Source: Flavobacteriia bacterium (GTDB taxonomy: Bacteria > Bacteroidota > Bacteroidia > Flavobacteriales > Flavobacteriaceae). Taken from it: a stretch of DNA of 64,000 bases. Both the position numbers and the translations under genes were made by a program. The stretch is from NCBI GenBank assembly GCA_013298525.1, contig JAAFHW010000003.1, forward strand, positions 13,247-77,246, given 5' to 3'. Under the pieces are notes generated by a model. It was not told where the DNA came from and made no database searches. It saw only the letters and a program-made list of their open reading frames with translations. Shown piece after piece: positions 39,572-48,498 of the stretch; positions within the stretch are counted from its first letter, which is position 1, and each line of letters starts with the position of its first letter.

Positions 39572-40009
39572 TTACTTCAAATACAAACAATGATTATAAT
39601 AATCTATAATAGCTTTTCCTTGTAATAAAATATCAGCGCCAATAATCCCTTGAACTGGTTTGGCTTTATATTGTTGTAGTGCAATATTAACATGAGATAA
39701 ATCAAAAATCACCAAATGAAAATCAGTTTCTTTCCATCTGCCAAGTTGTAAGGTGTTGTTTTTTGCAACTTGTGTAAACATTCCAGTGGCACCAGCTCCA
39801 GCAGCTCTAGTTTTAGATTTTTTGGCTTTTAGTTGAAATAATTCAACGCTCTCAAATCCAACACAACTATTACTCGCACCAGTATCTAGAATAAAGTTTC
39901 CTTTTACGCCGTTAATACTTGCTTTTATAAGTAAATGCTGGGTTTTAGAAACTTTGAAAGCAATTTTTTTGTAATTGTTTTTCTTTAAAGTCGTTTGGAA
40001 TTCTTCCAT
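39572..40009 (-). CDS. Retropepsin-like (clan AA) aspartic protease
   Basis: 145 aa; GNFILDTGASNSCVGFESVE (DTGA active-site motif), PVQGIIGADILLQGKAIIDY flap/second motif. No obvious signal peptide. Confidence 0.9.
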   Translation of the reverse strand: MEEFQTTLKKNNYKKIAFKVSKTQHLLIKASINGVKGNFILDTGASNSCVGFESVELFQLKAKKSKTRAAGAGATGMFTQVAKNNTLQLGRWKETDFHLVIFDLSHVNIALQQYKAKPVQGIIGADILLQGKAIIDYYNHCLYLK

Positions 40010-42570
40010 TTTTTAAAAATTTTGAATAGCAAAAGTAAAGCAATTACGCTTCCTAAAATTGAAAACCAAATAAAATAGTTTCCATTAGAGTTGGTTTCTA
40101 ATGTTCCGTAATATACAAAGGAACTCCAATAATAAGGCGATTTTTTTGCATTTGGTATCGATTCATCTGAAAGAAAATCAAGCTTTGCTTTATTTGTAGC
40201 TTCGTAATAGGATTTGCCAGATTTTATATTGGAATAGAATTTTTCCATCAAAATTGAAGTCGTAAAATCGTTTACTTTCCATAAGGAGAATAACAGATTT
40301 TGAGCTCCAGCAAATTGAAATCCTCGCGCAATACTCATGGCTCCTTCAGCTTTATAAAGTTTGCCAATTCCAGTTTCGCAGGCACTCAATACTACCAAAT
40401 TCGGGTTGATTTCTAAATTATATAACTCAGAATATAAGATTTCGGAATTATAAAATTTGATATTCGCCTGATCAATAATATCGCCTGAATCGGCATGTGT
40501 TGAAAGATGAAGAATGGAATAATTTTGAGCATTTGAACTGAAGTTTTTAAATGTTGCTTCGGCTTTTGAAAGATAATTACCATCAAATTTCTCTTGAATA
40601 GCTTCCATTTCTTTTTTGGAAAAAGCTAGTTCTAAATTGGTTTTTTCAAATATTGGAAACACGCCAAGAACAGTTTCTTTATCAAATTTAAAAGGAACGG
40701 AGTTCAAATAAAATGAAGCAGAATTATTATAGCCAATTGCGAAATCATTTAATAAATAATTCATTTTGGCAAAATTGGTTGTTTTAGATTCTTTAGTAAT
40801 CAAAGCCTCAAAAGGAAGAAAAGTAAGAATGCCATCAGGAATAATGATGAGGTTTTTATAAGTTGATTTTACAGGAAGTTTCAGCATTTTATAAACTAAA
40901 AATCCATGATGATTATATTCAGAAACATGGTTTGCAATCTTCTCACTATCAGAAAAATAATCTATAAATGATCTTATTGTTCTAATGGAATTATCGTCAA
41001 TTTTAATAAAATCTAACTTTATATTTCCGTTTTCTAAGGTGAAACTATATAGTCTGTTTTGACCATAGAAATATTCAACCAAAATAGCTTTGTCTTTTTT
41101 TAATTTTGAAAACAAATTATTAATATCAACTATTTTGGATTCATTTGATTTTTCAGATGTTTTCGATTTCAATAAAAGCATCAACTCATTTTGTTTTTTG
41201 ATGGCATTATTGATTATAGAAATGTCGGCTGAATCTAATTTTTGTTGCTCTTTGCTAATTATAGTATTCCAATTTTGAAGTTGTTCTAAAATTAGTTTTT
41301 CTTCTCTTGAAATTGTTTTGTTTTTCGAAATAGTTTGTTTTAGAACTGCCGATTTTGTTTGCTCTTGTAATACAAAGGCATTTTCAACATAACTTATTTT
41401 TTTCTCTTTTTGATAAAGCGAATAGAAGATGTCAAGACATTTTTCTGTTCGATTTCGGTTTCTAATCTGTGTAATTATTTTAGAGTTTTCATAAACCAAA
41501 AGCGATTGAAATAACTCCTCTATATGAAAAGAAAGCTGGTAGCTTTCTAATGCTTTTTTGGATTGATTCTGCGCTAAAAATAGTTCGGCTTGTAAATCTA
41601 AAGCATCTAATAAAGTAGTTTCTGCATAAAGAGAATTCTTATTGGGAAGATTGCCTTTTGATTTATTAAAATAAGGAATTAGAATCGTAAAAGCGTCTTT
41701 GATTTTGATATCTGCCTCCGATATTTTTCCTTCTTTGAATAACAAATTAGCTTCTTCAATGCTAAATTGAGCTTTTTTTCGAGGCTCTAAATTTGGTAAT
41801 TTGTTAAACTCATTTCGTGCTTTTTCAAAATAGGAATCTGCTAATTTCACATCTGAATAAATATTTAATTTTGATAAATTTCTATAAGCATTTGATAAAG
41901 TTTCAATTTGAGATTTATCTGACTTTAATAAAGAAATTGATTGTAAATAGGAACTTTCTGCTTTGTCAGATTTAGTATTCAGAAAATAATTATTTCCTAA
42001 ATTATTCAATAGAACACCTTTTTGTGTAGCGGTTAATCTTTCTGTTTTTATTGTTTTTTCAAGTAAATCGGTAGCTTGATTAATTCTTCCTGAGTTTTGA
42101 TATACATTGGATAAATTGAGAATAGCCGCATACTTTTGTGCCTGATTTTTTTCAACAGTAGCAATGTAGAAGTATTGTTTTATGGTATTTTCTGCATTAT
42201 CATAATCCCCAATAATAGTATAAAGATTACCTAATGGTTTTAAACAAAACTCGGTTATATCATAGTCAGAAAGTTTGTTTTTTTGAAACAACTGCCATGC
42301 GCTTTCATAACTTGAAATAGCTTTATTAGTAAACCCAAATTGATTTTGATAGTAAGCTTTATTGCTTTTTAAAATTACCAAAGCAAGAATTTCAGCTTTT
42401 GATTTTGGATGAAATGTTTTTTCTAAAGCTTCAAGTTTTTTCAAATTTTCATCACTCGGATTGGCAACAAATGCATCAATTGCATAATAAATTTTATCTT
42501 CTAAAGTAACCTCATTACTTTGAGAAAACATCATTTGAGTGAATAAGAAAAGAAGAATTATTTTCCGCAT
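39985..42570 (-). CDS. TPR-CHAT domain protein, secreted N-terminus and C-terminal TM anchor
   Basis: 861 aa; signal peptide; TPR-like helices; CHAT His in ILHLSTHADSGD and Cys in VVLSACETGIGKLYKAEGAMSIARGFQFAGAQNLLFSLWKV; C-terminal YFIWFSILGSVIALLLLFKIFKKWKNSKRL. Confidence 0.94.
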   Translation of the reverse strand: MRKIILLFLFTQMMFSQSNEVTLEDKIYYAIDAFVANPSDENLKKLEALEKTFHPKSKAEILALVILKSNKAYYQNQFGFTNKAISSYESAWQLFQKNKLSDYDITEFCLKPLGNLYTIIGDYDNAENTIKQYFYIATVEKNQAQKYAAILNLSNVYQNSGRINQATDLLEKTIKTERLTATQKGVLLNNLGNNYFLNTKSDKAESSYLQSISLLKSDKSQIETLSNAYRNLSKLNIYSDVKLADSYFEKARNEFNKLPNLEPRKKAQFSIEEANLLFKEGKISEADIKIKDAFTILIPYFNKSKGNLPNKNSLYAETTLLDALDLQAELFLAQNQSKKALESYQLSFHIEELFQSLLVYENSKIITQIRNRNRTEKCLDIFYSLYQKEKKISYVENAFVLQEQTKSAVLKQTISKNKTISREEKLILEQLQNWNTIISKEQQKLDSADISIINNAIKKQNELMLLLKSKTSEKSNESKIVDINNLFSKLKKDKAILVEYFYGQNRLYSFTLENGNIKLDFIKIDDNSIRTIRSFIDYFSDSEKIANHVSEYNHHGFLVYKMLKLPVKSTYKNLIIIPDGILTFLPFEALITKESKTTNFAKMNYLLNDFAIGYNNSASFYLNSVPFKFDKETVLGVFPIFEKTNLELAFSKKEMEAIQEKFDGNYLSKAEATFKNFSSNAQNYSILHLSTHADSGDIIDQANIKFYNSEILYSELYNLEINPNLVVLSACETGIGKLYKAEGAMSIARGFQFAGAQNLLFSLWKVNDFTTSILMEKFYSNIKSGKSYYEATNKAKLDFLSDESIPNAKKSPYYWSSFVYYGTLETNSNGNYFIWFSILGSVIALLLLFKIFKKWKNSKRL

Positions 42571-42573
42571 AAA

Positions 42574-44580
42574 TTAAAACTTCCAAATGCCATAAAACTG
42601 CCAATAATCAAACTCTTTTTCAAAGTTTTTGTAATATCTAATTCCAACACTTGGTCCAATTCTGGCAAAGCCAAAAGTTACATCTGCAAACAAACTAGTC
42701 TGGGTTTTTGAGAAATTTTTTGAAGTAGTTTTTGAACTATTAGATTCTTGTAAATCGGTTATTTCATTTCCTGGAATTGGTGGATTTTGACCAAAATTTA
42801 CAGCATAATATTTTTTTGAAAAATCATTTTCTACAGTTTCATTCATTATTAAGGATAGTTGTGGTCCAGCGCCAACACCAATATAATTGTTAATGTTATA
42901 ACGTAAAGAAATAGGTACAATATCAATTAAATTTCTAGTTAATTTTGAGGAACTCGATGTTTGTGTAAAAGCAGCATCAACAAGGGTTCCATTACTCAGT
43001 ATAATTGGTGGTGTAAATTGTTGCAAAAGTAGAGGTGAAGTAGTATTGTTTCCGCCAGTTTCTAGATGATTAAAATAAATTTCCGATTGCCAATAAAAGC
43101 GATAAGATTTATATGGAGAAATTGTAGCTCCAACAAAAAAACTCTTTGGGTTTTCTTGATCTGGAAAATAATTGTATCCAGCTTTTGCTCCAATTGAAAT
43201 TCCGGGTTTGAATCTTGTTACAGCATAATTGGTAATTACAGGTTCGTTTTTATCAAAGAAAATTGACGTTTTACTTTTGGTTTTTATCTTGTGAAAATCT
43301 TTGGCAAATCTCAAGGAATATTTTACAAATCCTTTAGTCGAATCGCGTTCTTTTACATTCTTTTGTTGACTTCCTGGAAGATAAATATTTTTAAATGTAA
43401 AATGAATTTGATCCTTTTTAATTATCGTATCCAAACAACTGTAATTTACAACTTCATTTTTAGGACAGATTGGACATTTAGGATATAAATCAACAATTTG
43501 GAGTGTTTTTTTATCAAACATTTCTGGAATATCGGTTTCAAGTCTAATGGTTTTTGCCGGACCTTCTCCATCATTTTGAAAACGCGTTTTAAAATTTAGT
43601 GTTTTTAATCGAACCAATCTATAATTGATAAGAGTTCCGTTACTAGACATTTTATTAGGATCGTGTGACGTTACAATTTCCATTTCTAATGTTTTCTTTT
43701 TATGGTTTTTGTAGTTTCTGTCAGGAACATAAACGCCACGCATTCTTACAGTTGCGCTAGTGTCTTTAATCATGTCTGGTGTTGTTTTGAAACTCATAAA
43801 AACATTGCGAGTTTCTTTAGCATTCATTGCATCAAATTCTAAAATTTTAACATCAGAAAATAGGGCTTTGCTTTCTGCTAAAGTCATATCTAAGTTTTCA
43901 TCTTCAGTAGAAAAGGATTTTTTGAAATAAGTATAATCATCAACAGAGGCTACATTTTCATTAGAATTATTTTTGTCGTCAACAGAAGCAATTCCGTTTT
44001 CAATAATTTCTCTTTCTCCAAAATGTGTTCGGGTTTCTAATAGTTCGAAGTTTTTATTTTTAAACTCTTTATCGTTGTAAAACAAGTATAATTTTCCGCT
44101 AGAAACATAATCAAGAAGATTTTGATAACTCAAAACGACAATCATTTCTTCCTCAGGAACCGGTTCGCGATTGTTGAATATTTTAAATCCATCTTCGGTT
44201 TCAATAGAAGCAATATCCTCCGATTTGTCATCAGTAATTTCTGTTATAGCAACAGTTTTTGGTCGAGTAGAAGGTGGTTTTCCATTGTCATAATTATTTG
44301 TAACAGCAAGGTTTACTTTATAATCACCTTTCTTTTTATATACTTTTTTAGGTTCTTTAGCTTTGCTATAACTGCCATCGCCAAGTTCCCAAAAGTAACT
44401 ATAACTTGCTGGTGGTGCACCGGCAATTTGATTTAATGGAGGAGTTTCTGGTTTTAAAGAAACCAAGTTTCCTTTTTTATCAAAGCTAATAGTAGCTTTT
44501 CTGGTAACTGTATCTTTTACTTTTGTTTGAGAAAAAGAAAAAAAGGTAGTTAAAAACAGGAGTAAAACTAATTTTTTCAT
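42574..44580 (-). CDS. PKD-domain protein with C-terminal outer-membrane beta-barrel-like region
   Basis: Signal peptide MKKLVLLLFLTTFFSFSQ; YSYFWELGDGSYSKAKEPKKVYKKKGDYKVNLAVTN (PKD); C-terminal GISIGAKAGYNYFP...VGIRYYKNFEKEFDYWQFYGIWKF. Start set at 44580. Confidence 0.85.
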   Translation of the reverse strand: MKKLVLLLFLTTFFSFSQTKVKDTVTRKATISFDKKGNLVSLKPETPPLNQIAGAPPASYSYFWELGDGSYSKAKEPKKVYKKKGDYKVNLAVTNNYDNGKPPSTRPKTVAITEITDDKSEDIASIETEDGFKIFNNREPVPEEEMIVVLSYQNLLDYVSSGKLYLFYNDKEFKNKNFELLETRTHFGEREIIENGIASVDDKNNSNENVASVDDYTYFKKSFSTEDENLDMTLAESKALFSDVKILEFDAMNAKETRNVFMSFKTTPDMIKDTSATVRMRGVYVPDRNYKNHKKKTLEMEIVTSHDPNKMSSNGTLINYRLVRLKTLNFKTRFQNDGEGPAKTIRLETDIPEMFDKKTLQIVDLYPKCPICPKNEVVNYSCLDTIIKKDQIHFTFKNIYLPGSQQKNVKERDSTKGFVKYSLRFAKDFHKIKTKSKTSIFFDKNEPVITNYAVTRFKPGISIGAKAGYNYFPDQENPKSFFVGATISPYKSYRFYWQSEIYFNHLETGGNNTTSPLLLQQFTPPIILSNGTLVDAAFTQTSSSSKLTRNLIDIVPISLRYNINNYIGVGAGPQLSLIMNETVENDFSKKYYAVNFGQNPPIPGNEITDLQESNSSKTTSKNFSKTQTSLFADVTFGFARIGPSVGIRYYKNFEKEFDYWQFYGIWKF

Positions 44581-44614
44581 TGTAAAAAGGTTGGTTAGCA
44601 TTTATAAAAATAAC

Positions 44615-44642
44615 AAAAAGCGATGAATAAATCACCGCTTTT
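44615..44642 (-). terminator. Terminator after the lipoprotein gene 44667-45650
   Basis: Stem AAAAGCGATGA/TCACCGCTTTT with a minus-strand TTTTTG run. Confidence 0.7.
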
Positions 44643-44666
44643 CCAAAAATAAACTTAACCTAACTA

Positions 44667-45713: not shown

Positions 45714-45743
45714 TATATCAACTGGGATAATTATTTGTTACCC
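45714..45743 (-). promoter_or_regulatory. Putative ECF-sigma promoter, copy 1
   Basis: Minus strand GGGGTAACAAATAATTATCCCAGTTGATATAACA. Confidence 0.75.
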
Positions 45744-45768
45744 CAGTTTTAAAAGTTTTTTTAATCTA

Positions 45769-46365
45769 CTAGTAATAAGCAAAATCGATGTAAGGAATTC
45801 CTATATTTACTAACGGACCACCATTTTGGTAAAAATTGGCTCCAGTAATAGTCATTATTCCAAAAGTTTGAGGAAAACTTACTAATGCTCCAGGTTGATG
45901 TACAACTCTTCCAATGATGTTTGAAAAATTATTTCCGGCATTTGCTAAAAGCATTGTTCTTCTTATAGTGTAAGATTGATTGGCAATTATTGGTGTTGGA
46001 GTTATTGAAACATAACTTGTATTTGCAGAAGAGAACACATGGTTGCCAGTATAAATTACAGTATTAGTATTGTTGTCTACAATTTCCATTTTGTAAGGAA
46101 CAGCTGCAATTGCTAGTTGACTTTGATATCCAATACTACAAATAGTTTTGTTTTGAGATAAAGTAAAAGTGTATTCGTGAATTTCTGTATCAAATGTAAC
46201 ATTGTTTTGATGTCCAGGAAGTGTAACCACATTGGCATACAATTGATTGAAAATGGTGTTTGTTGAACTACAAGGAGGAACTGGAACTGGAGTTGTTCCT
46301 GTTGAGCAACTACTGATTATTAATCCTAAAAATAATAATGTTACGATGTTTTTAAATGTTTTCAT
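45769..46365 (-). CDS. Uncharacterised lipoprotein (198 aa)
   Basis: Lipobox LLFLGLIISSCSTGTTPVPVPPC; ECF-like promoter motif upstream. Confidence 0.82.
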   Translation of the reverse strand: MKTFKNIVTLLFLGLIISSCSTGTTPVPVPPCSSTNTIFNQLYANVVTLPGHQNNVTFDTEIHEYTFTLSQNKTICSIGYQSQLAIAAVPYKMEIVDNNTNTVIYTGNHVFSSANTSYVSITPTPIIANQSYTIRRTMLLANAGNNFSNIIGRVVHQPGALVSFPQTFGIMTITGANFYQNGGPLVNIGIPYIDFAYY

Positions 46366-46398
46366 GATTTCTAAATTTTTAAATGTTGTTTATAGTTT

Positions 46399-46428
46399 TA
46401 TATCAATTGGGCAACTAATTTGTTACCC
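46399..46428 (-). promoter_or_regulatory. Putative ECF-sigma promoter, copy 2
   Basis: Minus strand CTGGGTAACAAATTAGTTGCCCAATTGATATAAAA. Confidence 0.78.
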
Positions 46429-46439
46429 AGTTTTTTAAT

Positions 46440-46886
46440 TTATTTTTCAAAATCGGCACTTTGTATAATTTTATAGCTTAAAATATCGCCTGTGCTTACT
46501 AATTCTATCATACGTTTGGCTTGACTTTCAGAGCTTGAAAACCCTTTCGCTGTTCCAGTATCTGTAGTTACTTCCCAGAAGTACAATCTCACTTTGTTAG
46601 ACGAAACGGTTTCTTTTACTTGAAAGAAACTTTCAATTTTTCTATCTAAAACTATTTCTCCCACTGATGACAATTCGATCATTCTTTTTGCTTCTTCCAA
46701 TGAATTTGCTGTTCCAGAATAATTGCCTTGATTTGTTCTTACGTTCCAATCATATACTTCTTTAATTTGATCTCTTGTAAGAGTTGAAGTTGCTTCGATT
46801 GTGTTTGAAGTTGTTGTTACTTCTGTAGCGTTTATATTTGAAAATGATAATGCCACGATTGCTAATGTTAAGATTGATTTTTTCAT
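46440..46886 (-). CDS. Small secreted protein with two internal repeats (148 aa)
   Basis: Signal peptide; repeats YDWNVRTNQGNYSGTANSLEEAKRMIELSSVGEIVLDRKIES and YFWEVTTDTGTAKGFSSSESQAKRMIELVSTGDILSYKIIQS. Confidence 0.85.
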   Translation of the reverse strand: MKKSILTLAIVALSFSNINATEVTTTSNTIEATSTLTRDQIKEVYDWNVRTNQGNYSGTANSLEEAKRMIELSSVGEIVLDRKIESFFQVKETVSSNKVRLYFWEVTTDTGTAKGFSSSESQAKRMIELVSTGDILSYKIIQSADFEK

Positions 46887-46939
46887 GATTTCTAAGTTTT
46901 AATGTTTTTATTAATAGTTTTGATTTTGTTTTCTATTGT

Positions 46940-46969
46940 TATATCAATTGGTGTTTTAATTTGTTACCC
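46940..46969 (-). promoter_or_regulatory. Putative ECF-sigma promoter, copy 3
   Basis: Minus strand TAGGGTAACAAATTAAAACACCAATTGATATAACA. Confidence 0.78.
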
Positions 46970-47025
46970 TATTTTTTCAAATTTCTTTTTGAAACTTTAT
47001 AAATCTTAATTGATGTATTTTTCTT

Positions 47026-47055
47026 TATATCAATTGTAGTTTTAATTTGTTACCC
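47026..47055 (-). promoter_or_regulatory. Putative ECF-sigma promoter, copy 4
   Basis: Minus strand AAGGGTAACAAATTAAAACTACAATTGATATAAAG. Confidence 0.75.
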
Positions 47056-47116
47056 TTACAATCTGAATTATTTTGATTAACTTTTTAAAACACTATTTCA
47101 ATGAACTTTATATCAC

Positions 47117-47146
47117 TATATCAACTCGTGTTATAATTTGTTACCT
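47117..47146 (-). promoter_or_regulatory. Putative ECF-sigma promoter, copy 5
   Basis: Minus strand TGAGGTAACAAATTATAACACGAGTTGATATAGTG; lies in the leader region of the divergent sigma gene. Confidence 0.68.
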
Positions 47147-47189
47147 CAATTATTAATTTTTTTCTACATTAGCAGTAAATAAGGTAGTT

Positions 47190-47775: not shown

Positions 47776-48498
47776 ATGAACGAGCAATTGTACATAACAT
47801 TCGAAAATTATTTCAATAACGAAATGTCGCAAGAAGAAAAATTGGAATTTGAAAACCAACTTCAAAATGACATTGAGTTACAAGAAAAGTTTGAATTATA
47901 TAAAGAAACAACACAGTTTTTAGCAACTAAATTTGATAAAGAAACTATTGCTTTCAAAGAAAATTTGAAGTCAATTTCTAGAGAGAATTTTGCTGAAAAA
48001 GAAATTAAAAAATCAAAGGTCATTGCTTTCAAACCTTTCTATTATGCAGTTGCGGCATCTGTTGTTCTTGCTTTTGGGACTTGGTTTATGATGCAAGGAA
48101 ATCCTGAATATGGCGATTATAATCAACATGAAAACGCCTATTTTATGGAACGAAGCGTTGGAGATGCAACTTTAAATGAAGCTCAAAAAGCATTTAATGA
48201 TAAAGACTATAAAAAAACAGTTTCAGCATTTGAGAAAGTGCAAAATCTAACCAATCCTGAGTTGCAATATTATTACGCTATAGCATTAATTGAAACGAAT
48301 GATTATACCAAAGCTGAAATTTTATTGAACAATATTAAATCAGGAACTTCAGTTTATAAAGACAAAGCAATTTGGTATTTGGCATTATCCAATTTAAAAC
48401 AAAGTAAGTTTGATGAATGCAAAACCTACTTAAATCAAATTCCAGCCGATGCGGAGGATTATATAAAAGCACAGAAATTGTTGAAGGATTTGGATTAA
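47776..48498 (+). CDS. Single-pass membrane TPR protein, candidate anti-sigma/sigma-partner
   Basis: 240 aa; N-terminal MNEQLYITFENYFNNEMSQEEKLEFENQLQND, TM FYYAVAASVVLAFGTWFMM, TPR-like C-terminus; starts 4 nt after the sigma gene. Confidence 0.8.
   Translation: MNEQLYITFENYFNNEMSQEEKLEFENQLQNDIELQEKFELYKETTQFLATKFDKETIAFKENLKSISRENFAEKEIKKSKVIAFKPFYYAVAASVVLAFGTWFMMQGNPEYGDYNQHENAYFMERSVGDATLNEAQKAFNDKDYKKTVSAFEKVQNLTNPELQYYYAIALIETNDYTKAEILLNNIKSGTSVYKDKAIWYLALSNLKQSKFDECKTYLNQIPADAEDYIKAQKLLKDLD

Follow-up and report, generated by a model that had tools for sequence, protein, structure and literature searches.

A probable two-block promoter motif and its likely reader, an adjacent extracytoplasmic function sigma factor, in Flavobacteriaceae

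The window analysed here, a 64-kb stretch of contig JAAFHW010000003.1 from a Flavobacteriia bacterium (Flavobacteriaceae; assembly GCA_013298525.1), carries a gene for an extracytoplasmic function (ECF) sigma factor and, divergent to it, a block of genes that includes a secreted repeat protein and two lipoproteins (Table 1). Five copies of the two-block motif GGTAACAAATWA-N6-CARTTGATATA lie between 45714 and 47145, all on the minus strand, where 0.01 would be expected by chance from shuffled sequence. An earlier note, made from the sequence alone, had described this cluster, and its description stands: copies 1 to 4 are exact, the sigma-proximal copy 5, GAGTTGATATA, departs from it by one mismatch, and GTAACA-N16-GATATA is retained in all five. 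Nor was a sixth copy found in the window, as the note had judged by eye; the sole site with three mismatches is at chance level and falls inside the lipoprotein B gene. The genome-wide search that the note had proposed (2.98 Mb in 181 contigs) returned only seven matches to the core GTAACAAAT-N11-TTGATATA without mismatch, namely the five window copies, C19:373-400 and C135:17442-17469. A start codon follows shortly 3' of only three of the five window copies, and the two nearest to the sigma gene stand 140 and 231 nt ahead of the ATG of the repeat-protein gene.

Table 1. Features of the sigma locus in the window (TM, transmembrane; ORF, open reading frame)
Feature	Position	Strand	Basis or remark
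Retropepsin-like aspartyl protease	39572..40009	-	domain profiles, relatives
TPR-CHAT protein, N-terminal signal-like and C-terminal TM-like segments	39985..42570	-	domain profiles, relatives
PKD/DUF7619/DUF7849 outer-membrane protein, probable regulon member	42574..44601	-	domain profiles, relatives
Lipoprotein A, 327 aa	44667..45650	-	in nearly all sigma loci examined
Motif copy 1	45714..45742	-	putative promoter of lipoprotein A, 64 nt before ATG
Hairpin over copy 1 (-35 pairs with spacer)	45720..45748	-	local fold -13.8 kcal/mol, 26 nt after lipoprotein B stop
Lipoprotein B, 198 aa	45769..46365	-	ORF, relatives' loci
Motif copy 2	46399..46427	-	putative promoter of lipoprotein B, 34 nt before ATG
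Hairpin over copy 2	46408..46429	-	-11.9 kcal/mol, ~12 nt after repeat-protein stop
Secreted repeat protein, 148 aa	46440..46886	-	ORF, relatives' loci
Motif copy 3	46940..46968	-	putative promoter of secreted repeat protein, 54 nt before ATG
Motif copy 4	47026..47054	-	tandem head copy, no ORF directly behind
Motif copy 5	47117..47145	-	tandem head copy adjoining sigma gene, no ORF directly behind
TACATTAG, sigma-A-like -10 (TAnnTTTG type) of sigma gene	47165..47172	+	sequence box
ECF sigma factor, 193 aa	47190..47771	+	Pfam, NCBIfam profiles
Probable anti-sigma factor	47776..48498	+	N-terminal anti-sigma-like helices, one TM helix, periplasmic TPR domain

The assignment of the divergent gene to the ECF family, which the note had also made, is borne out by Pfam Sigma70_r2 (29.4 bits, cut-off 24) and Sigma70_r4 (24.2 bits, cut-off 24.1), by TIGR02937 (56.4 bits, cut-off 42.9), and by a product of about 190 aa that contains regions 2 and 4 only. 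The top-scoring NCBIfam model is that of a Bacteroidota ECF subfamily, TIGR02985 (Sig70_bacteroi1), at 63.2 bits, which is far under its membership cut-off of 126.4. The only solved chain that matches the sigma profile by sequence, Mycobacterium tuberculosis SigL (6dv9, E = 6e-5), is distant and from another phylum. In nearly all loci examined, the sigma gene is preceded by a TAnnTT-G box similar to the sigma-A consensus of Bacteroidota; thus, the sigma factor is probably expressed constitutively or controlled in some other way.

The downstream neighbour is probably a membrane anti-sigma factor with a periplasmic TPR sensor. Its helices are predicted at residues 3-13, 19-31, 33-52, 56-71 and 88-105 (with low confidence over 73-91), and its N-terminus would thereby comprise three helices and a fourth before the TM segment, which is the layout of class I anti-sigma factors (PMC7406223); such factors have been recognised near only ~6% of Bacteroidetes ECFs (PMC7406223). 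The NCBIfam anti-sigma model NF052375 matches 19 of 25 orthologs of the TPR protein (best 5.6e-9), the window protein scoring below the cut-off, and a fold search with the candidate returned TPR-type matches, with no anti-sigma domain among the best 50 PDB matches.

The distribution of the motif was followed in 151 family genomes, nearly all from separate genera, in 121 Flavobacterium genomes and in a set of 80 named sigma loci. A clear sigma ortholog (E < 1e-65; next best 4e-29) is present in 19 of the family genomes, and every one of these orthologs (51-100% identity) carries the motif at its locus; loci of ECF paralogs do not (0/11). Within Flavobacterium, 47 genomes contain the ortholog, and the motif, allowing at most one mismatch, occurs in 45 of them vs 2 of the 74 that lack it (Fisher P = 3e-28), while a reversed-motif control matched a single genome of the 121. 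The sigma-bearing exceptions are G176, where the copies have diverged to two mismatches, and G226, in which the sigma gene is broken. In both G226 and G199, sigma region 4 and the N-terminal helices of the anti-sigma candidate have been lost, leaving an in-frame sigma2-TM-TPR fusion, and the lipoprotein/outer-membrane protein/CHAT block and the local motifs are gone as well. In these two fusions (L244:9014-10051 and L245:8969-9976), sigma region 2 continues in frame into the anti-sigma candidate from approximately the fourth helix of the latter onward.

The same comparison defines the anatomy of the motif. A logo built from 100 sites reads GGGTAACAAwT-N11-TTGATATA; A-rich sequence lies ~13-19 nt upstream of it, and ~5 nt downstream there is a TATAAA-like element. 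The two blocks correspond to a -35 element, GGGTAACAA, and a -10 element, TTGATATA, with a 16-nt gap between GGTAACA and GATATA that accounts for 179 of the 182 occurrences at spacings of 10-23 in the named loci; over the 151 family genomes, a pattern one base shorter gave background only. Across 19 genera the blocks and their spacing are fixed and the spacer and flanks diverge freely. The motif is found at 79 of the 80 named loci, in 194 copies that all lie on the strand divergent from the sigma gene, usually 20-80 nt ahead of a start codon. The sigma strand has none, and no copy at all occurs in the 495 kb from these loci that cover the sigma gene and the DNA downstream of it. An AAC in the -35 and a fixed spacing, which mark ECF promoters, are thus both present in GGGTAACAA and GATATA, 16 nt apart, in a motif that is tied to the sigma gene by presence and absence.

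Taken together, the motif is very probably a promoter read by the ECF sigma factor next to it, which, once freed from the membrane anti-sigma/TPR protein, would transcribe the divergent block and a few distal genes. The note had proposed an ECF promoter layout with the neighbouring sigma factor as its reader, and the presence/absence pattern, the neighbourhood shared by 19 genera, the strand and spacing, and the loss of the local motifs alongside a broken sigma gene all favour that proposal. From sequence, we infer direct contact of the sigma factor with the motif and the positions of the transcription start sites. In the mechanism that we envisage, sigma would be made from its own sigma-A-like promoter and probably held by the product of the gene that follows, whose TPR domain would detect an envelope signal and release it. 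Free sigma would then transcribe the genes for the repeat protein and the lipoproteins, probably those for the PKD outer-membrane protein, the CHAT protein and the aspartyl protease, and a few distal secreted or envelope genes. In most internal copies a hairpin would probably terminate or attenuate the upstream transcript at the point where that of the following gene begins.

In relatives the divergent block has a conserved order: repeat protein, lipoprotein B, lipoprotein A, PKD-DUF7849 outer-membrane protein, TPR-CHAT protein and retropepsin-like protease, the first two being its variable part between species. The note had envisaged a compact local regulon of two lipoproteins and one secreted repeat protein. 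Motif copies do precede these genes, but the regulon is probably larger: several genera have an extra copy between the lipoprotein A and PKD genes, before the PKD/CHAT/protease block, and distal sites exist in this genome and others. Those of this genome lie 32 nt before the gene for an RCC1 protein sorted by the type IX secretion system (T9SS) and 29 nt before that for an outer-membrane protein-like product. Distal sites of relatives precede genes for an L,D-transpeptidase-type protein, a lipoprotein A paralog (41% identity) and other signal-peptide proteins. The L,D-transpeptidase type is common to 9 of the 20 distal stretches retrieved (one was checked for the YkuD domain), with the motif 156-177 nt before the gene at L212-L218, L225 and L226, and this distal copy is still present in G199 despite the broken sigma gene. 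Such targets may point to a role in envelope maintenance or envelope stress. An Rfam search found nothing credible in the region. A predicted model of lipoprotein A gave weak matches to ZU5/UPA-like folds (ankyrin, UNC5b; TM score about 0.3), and a PDB sequence search with this protein gave no match; its gene lies beside those for the caspase-like CHAT protein and the aspartyl protease.

Copies that lie between co-directional genes (internal copies, n = 26) have a feature rarely seen in head copies (n = 74). Their -35 GGGTAAC tends to pair with the spacer, as in AACAGGGTAAC-AAAATA-GTTGCCCTGTT, mostly soon after the upstream stop codon, and folds of -6 kcal/mol or lower occur in 19/26 internal vs 2/74 head copies (P = 9e-13, with related sites counted as independent). 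Spacers swapped among sites, or upstream flanks swapped among hairpin sites, never reached the observed stability (0/300 and 0/500), so the two arms covary. The G of the -10 is replaced by T, giving a more U-rich tail, in 9 of the 19 hairpin copies vs 2 of the 74 head copies. The stems, of 8-12 pairs, follow a stop codon and end in a short U-tract, and a consensus terminator scan reported none of them. The arrangement suggests, as the simplest reading of the internal copies, an overlapping terminator and promoter; given the short U-tract, attenuation, protection of mRNA 3' ends or a dyad acting at the DNA level may apply instead. A bidirectional promoter at the dyads was also considered and dropped, as inspection by eye showed no GATATA at the corresponding distance on the other strand.

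Head copies have a peculiarity of their own. At 14 of the 80 named loci, including L239 (F. muglaense), L246, L275, L285 and L314, one or more tandem head copies upstream of sigma are followed 28-44 nt later by an ORF of 21-22 aa, for example MKKYIKKIRRYFTRKIWKIITR or MENIKKLGITFINKLWTLITR. A loose search of 4.6 Mb on both strands, in loci that partly overlap, yielded 19 distinct peptide sequences, 18 of them behind the motif. The peptides are basic, end in ITR and were found only in sigma-bearing genomes, and variation among their ORFs is greatest at third codon positions. A nucleotide pattern for the C-terminus matched 8 of the 121 Flavobacterium genomes, all sigma-bearing, with 10 of 11 matches at the sigma locus. 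The family is unannotated, and routine annotation would probably miss such ORFs. No ORF of 21-22 aa lies behind the window head copies at 47026 and 47117, which may be relics or may boost transcription. We give even chances to the combined proposition that the internal element, with the -35 as 5' arm and the spacer as 3' arm, is both the end of one gene and the start of the following one, and that the extra tandem copies serve the peptide family.

Several observations weigh against the promoter model or parts of it. Two Flavobacterium genomes in which no sigma ortholog was detected have sites: G245 (95% complete) has an exact motif before an RCC1 gene near a contig end (L222), and G195 (L231) has a site with one mismatch. 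The sigma gene's own promoter lacks the motif, unlike those of many autoregulated ECFs; autoregulation through the same promoter is a common, not obligatory, ECF trait, and is not seen in the 80 named loci, where 0/194 copies are on the sigma strand. In the window, head copies 4 and 5 have no nearby ORF behind them, and the gap between the lipoprotein A and PKD genes holds a terminator-like hairpin (44615-44643, minus strand) and no motif copy, so that membership of the downstream block is uncertain here and its PKD, CHAT and protease genes are only probable regulon members in this species. Finally, 7/26 internal copies lack a hairpin, and the U-tracts of the others are short.

The perfect site in G245 would fit promoters read by another ECF sigma factor or by several, with the neighbour as one of a redundant set; flavobacteria have several ECFs, seven of them in F. 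psychrophilum, for which overlapping regulons have been suggested (PMC9723704). Genomes without the ortholog generally have other ECF genes, yet in Flavobacterium they almost never have the motif, and the paralog loci lack it, which makes redundancy very unlikely. Co-occurrence alone cannot separate linked regulators, and the dyad GGGTAAC...GTTACCC in the hairpin copies could suit an operator bound by another transcription factor, co-inherited with the locus, while sigma acts elsewhere. However, sigma is the only DNA-binding protein recognised in the conserved block, two unlike blocks at rigid spacing that always face the target genes form a promoter layout, and the dyads are found mainly at internal copies, where the outer pairs covary and are not conserved; we consider an operator very unlikely and rejected it. 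We likewise rejected a dispersed or tandem repeat of no regulatory role, which we regard as scarcely credible: near-identical tandem head copies do occur, for example in F. muglaense, but the blocks and spacing have stayed fixed over 19 genera where spacer and flanks were free to diverge, and no copies lie on the sigma strand or downstream.

With the sigma-recognised promoter as the preferred explanation, a conserved ECF group becomes readable across 19 genera in its promoter, its probable regulator and its regulon, and a regulator can be tentatively assigned to the L,D-transpeptidase and to the conserved CHAT/aspartyl-protease/lipoprotein block of unknown function. The group is directly testable in named Flavobacterium strains (sigma identity 94% in F. 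aquatile and 71% in F. johnsoniae CI04). To our knowledge, few Bacteroidota ECF regulons have a known promoter. Neither the motif nor the gene block was reported in the literature searched, which left most subscription journals out of reach, and as far as that literature goes the group is undescribed. The system itself, an ECF sigma factor with a probable anti-sigma factor and a dedicated promoter, is of an ordinary kind; its comparative support is unusually complete, and the hairpins and tiny peptides are unexpected extras.

The system resembles regulons of the RpoE-RseA type, with an ECF and a class I anti-sigma factor, in its two-domain sigma factor, adjacent membrane anti-sigma-like protein, AAC-containing -35, fixed spacing and envelope-type targets; it differs in its -10, TTGATATA, in the lack of a motif before the sigma gene, in the TPR sensor, and in internal promoters that overlap hairpins. 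Among Bacteroidota, P. gingivalis SigP is likewise an ECF that controls envelope and secretion genes (PMC4800418). The SM6 motif of F. psychrophilum is also an ECF-type promoter motif in a flavobacterium (PMC9723704), but its -10 contains a CGT box and its targets are T9SS genes and a sigma/anti-sigma pair, whereas the 100-site logo of the present motif has TTGATATA at the -10 and no CGT box.
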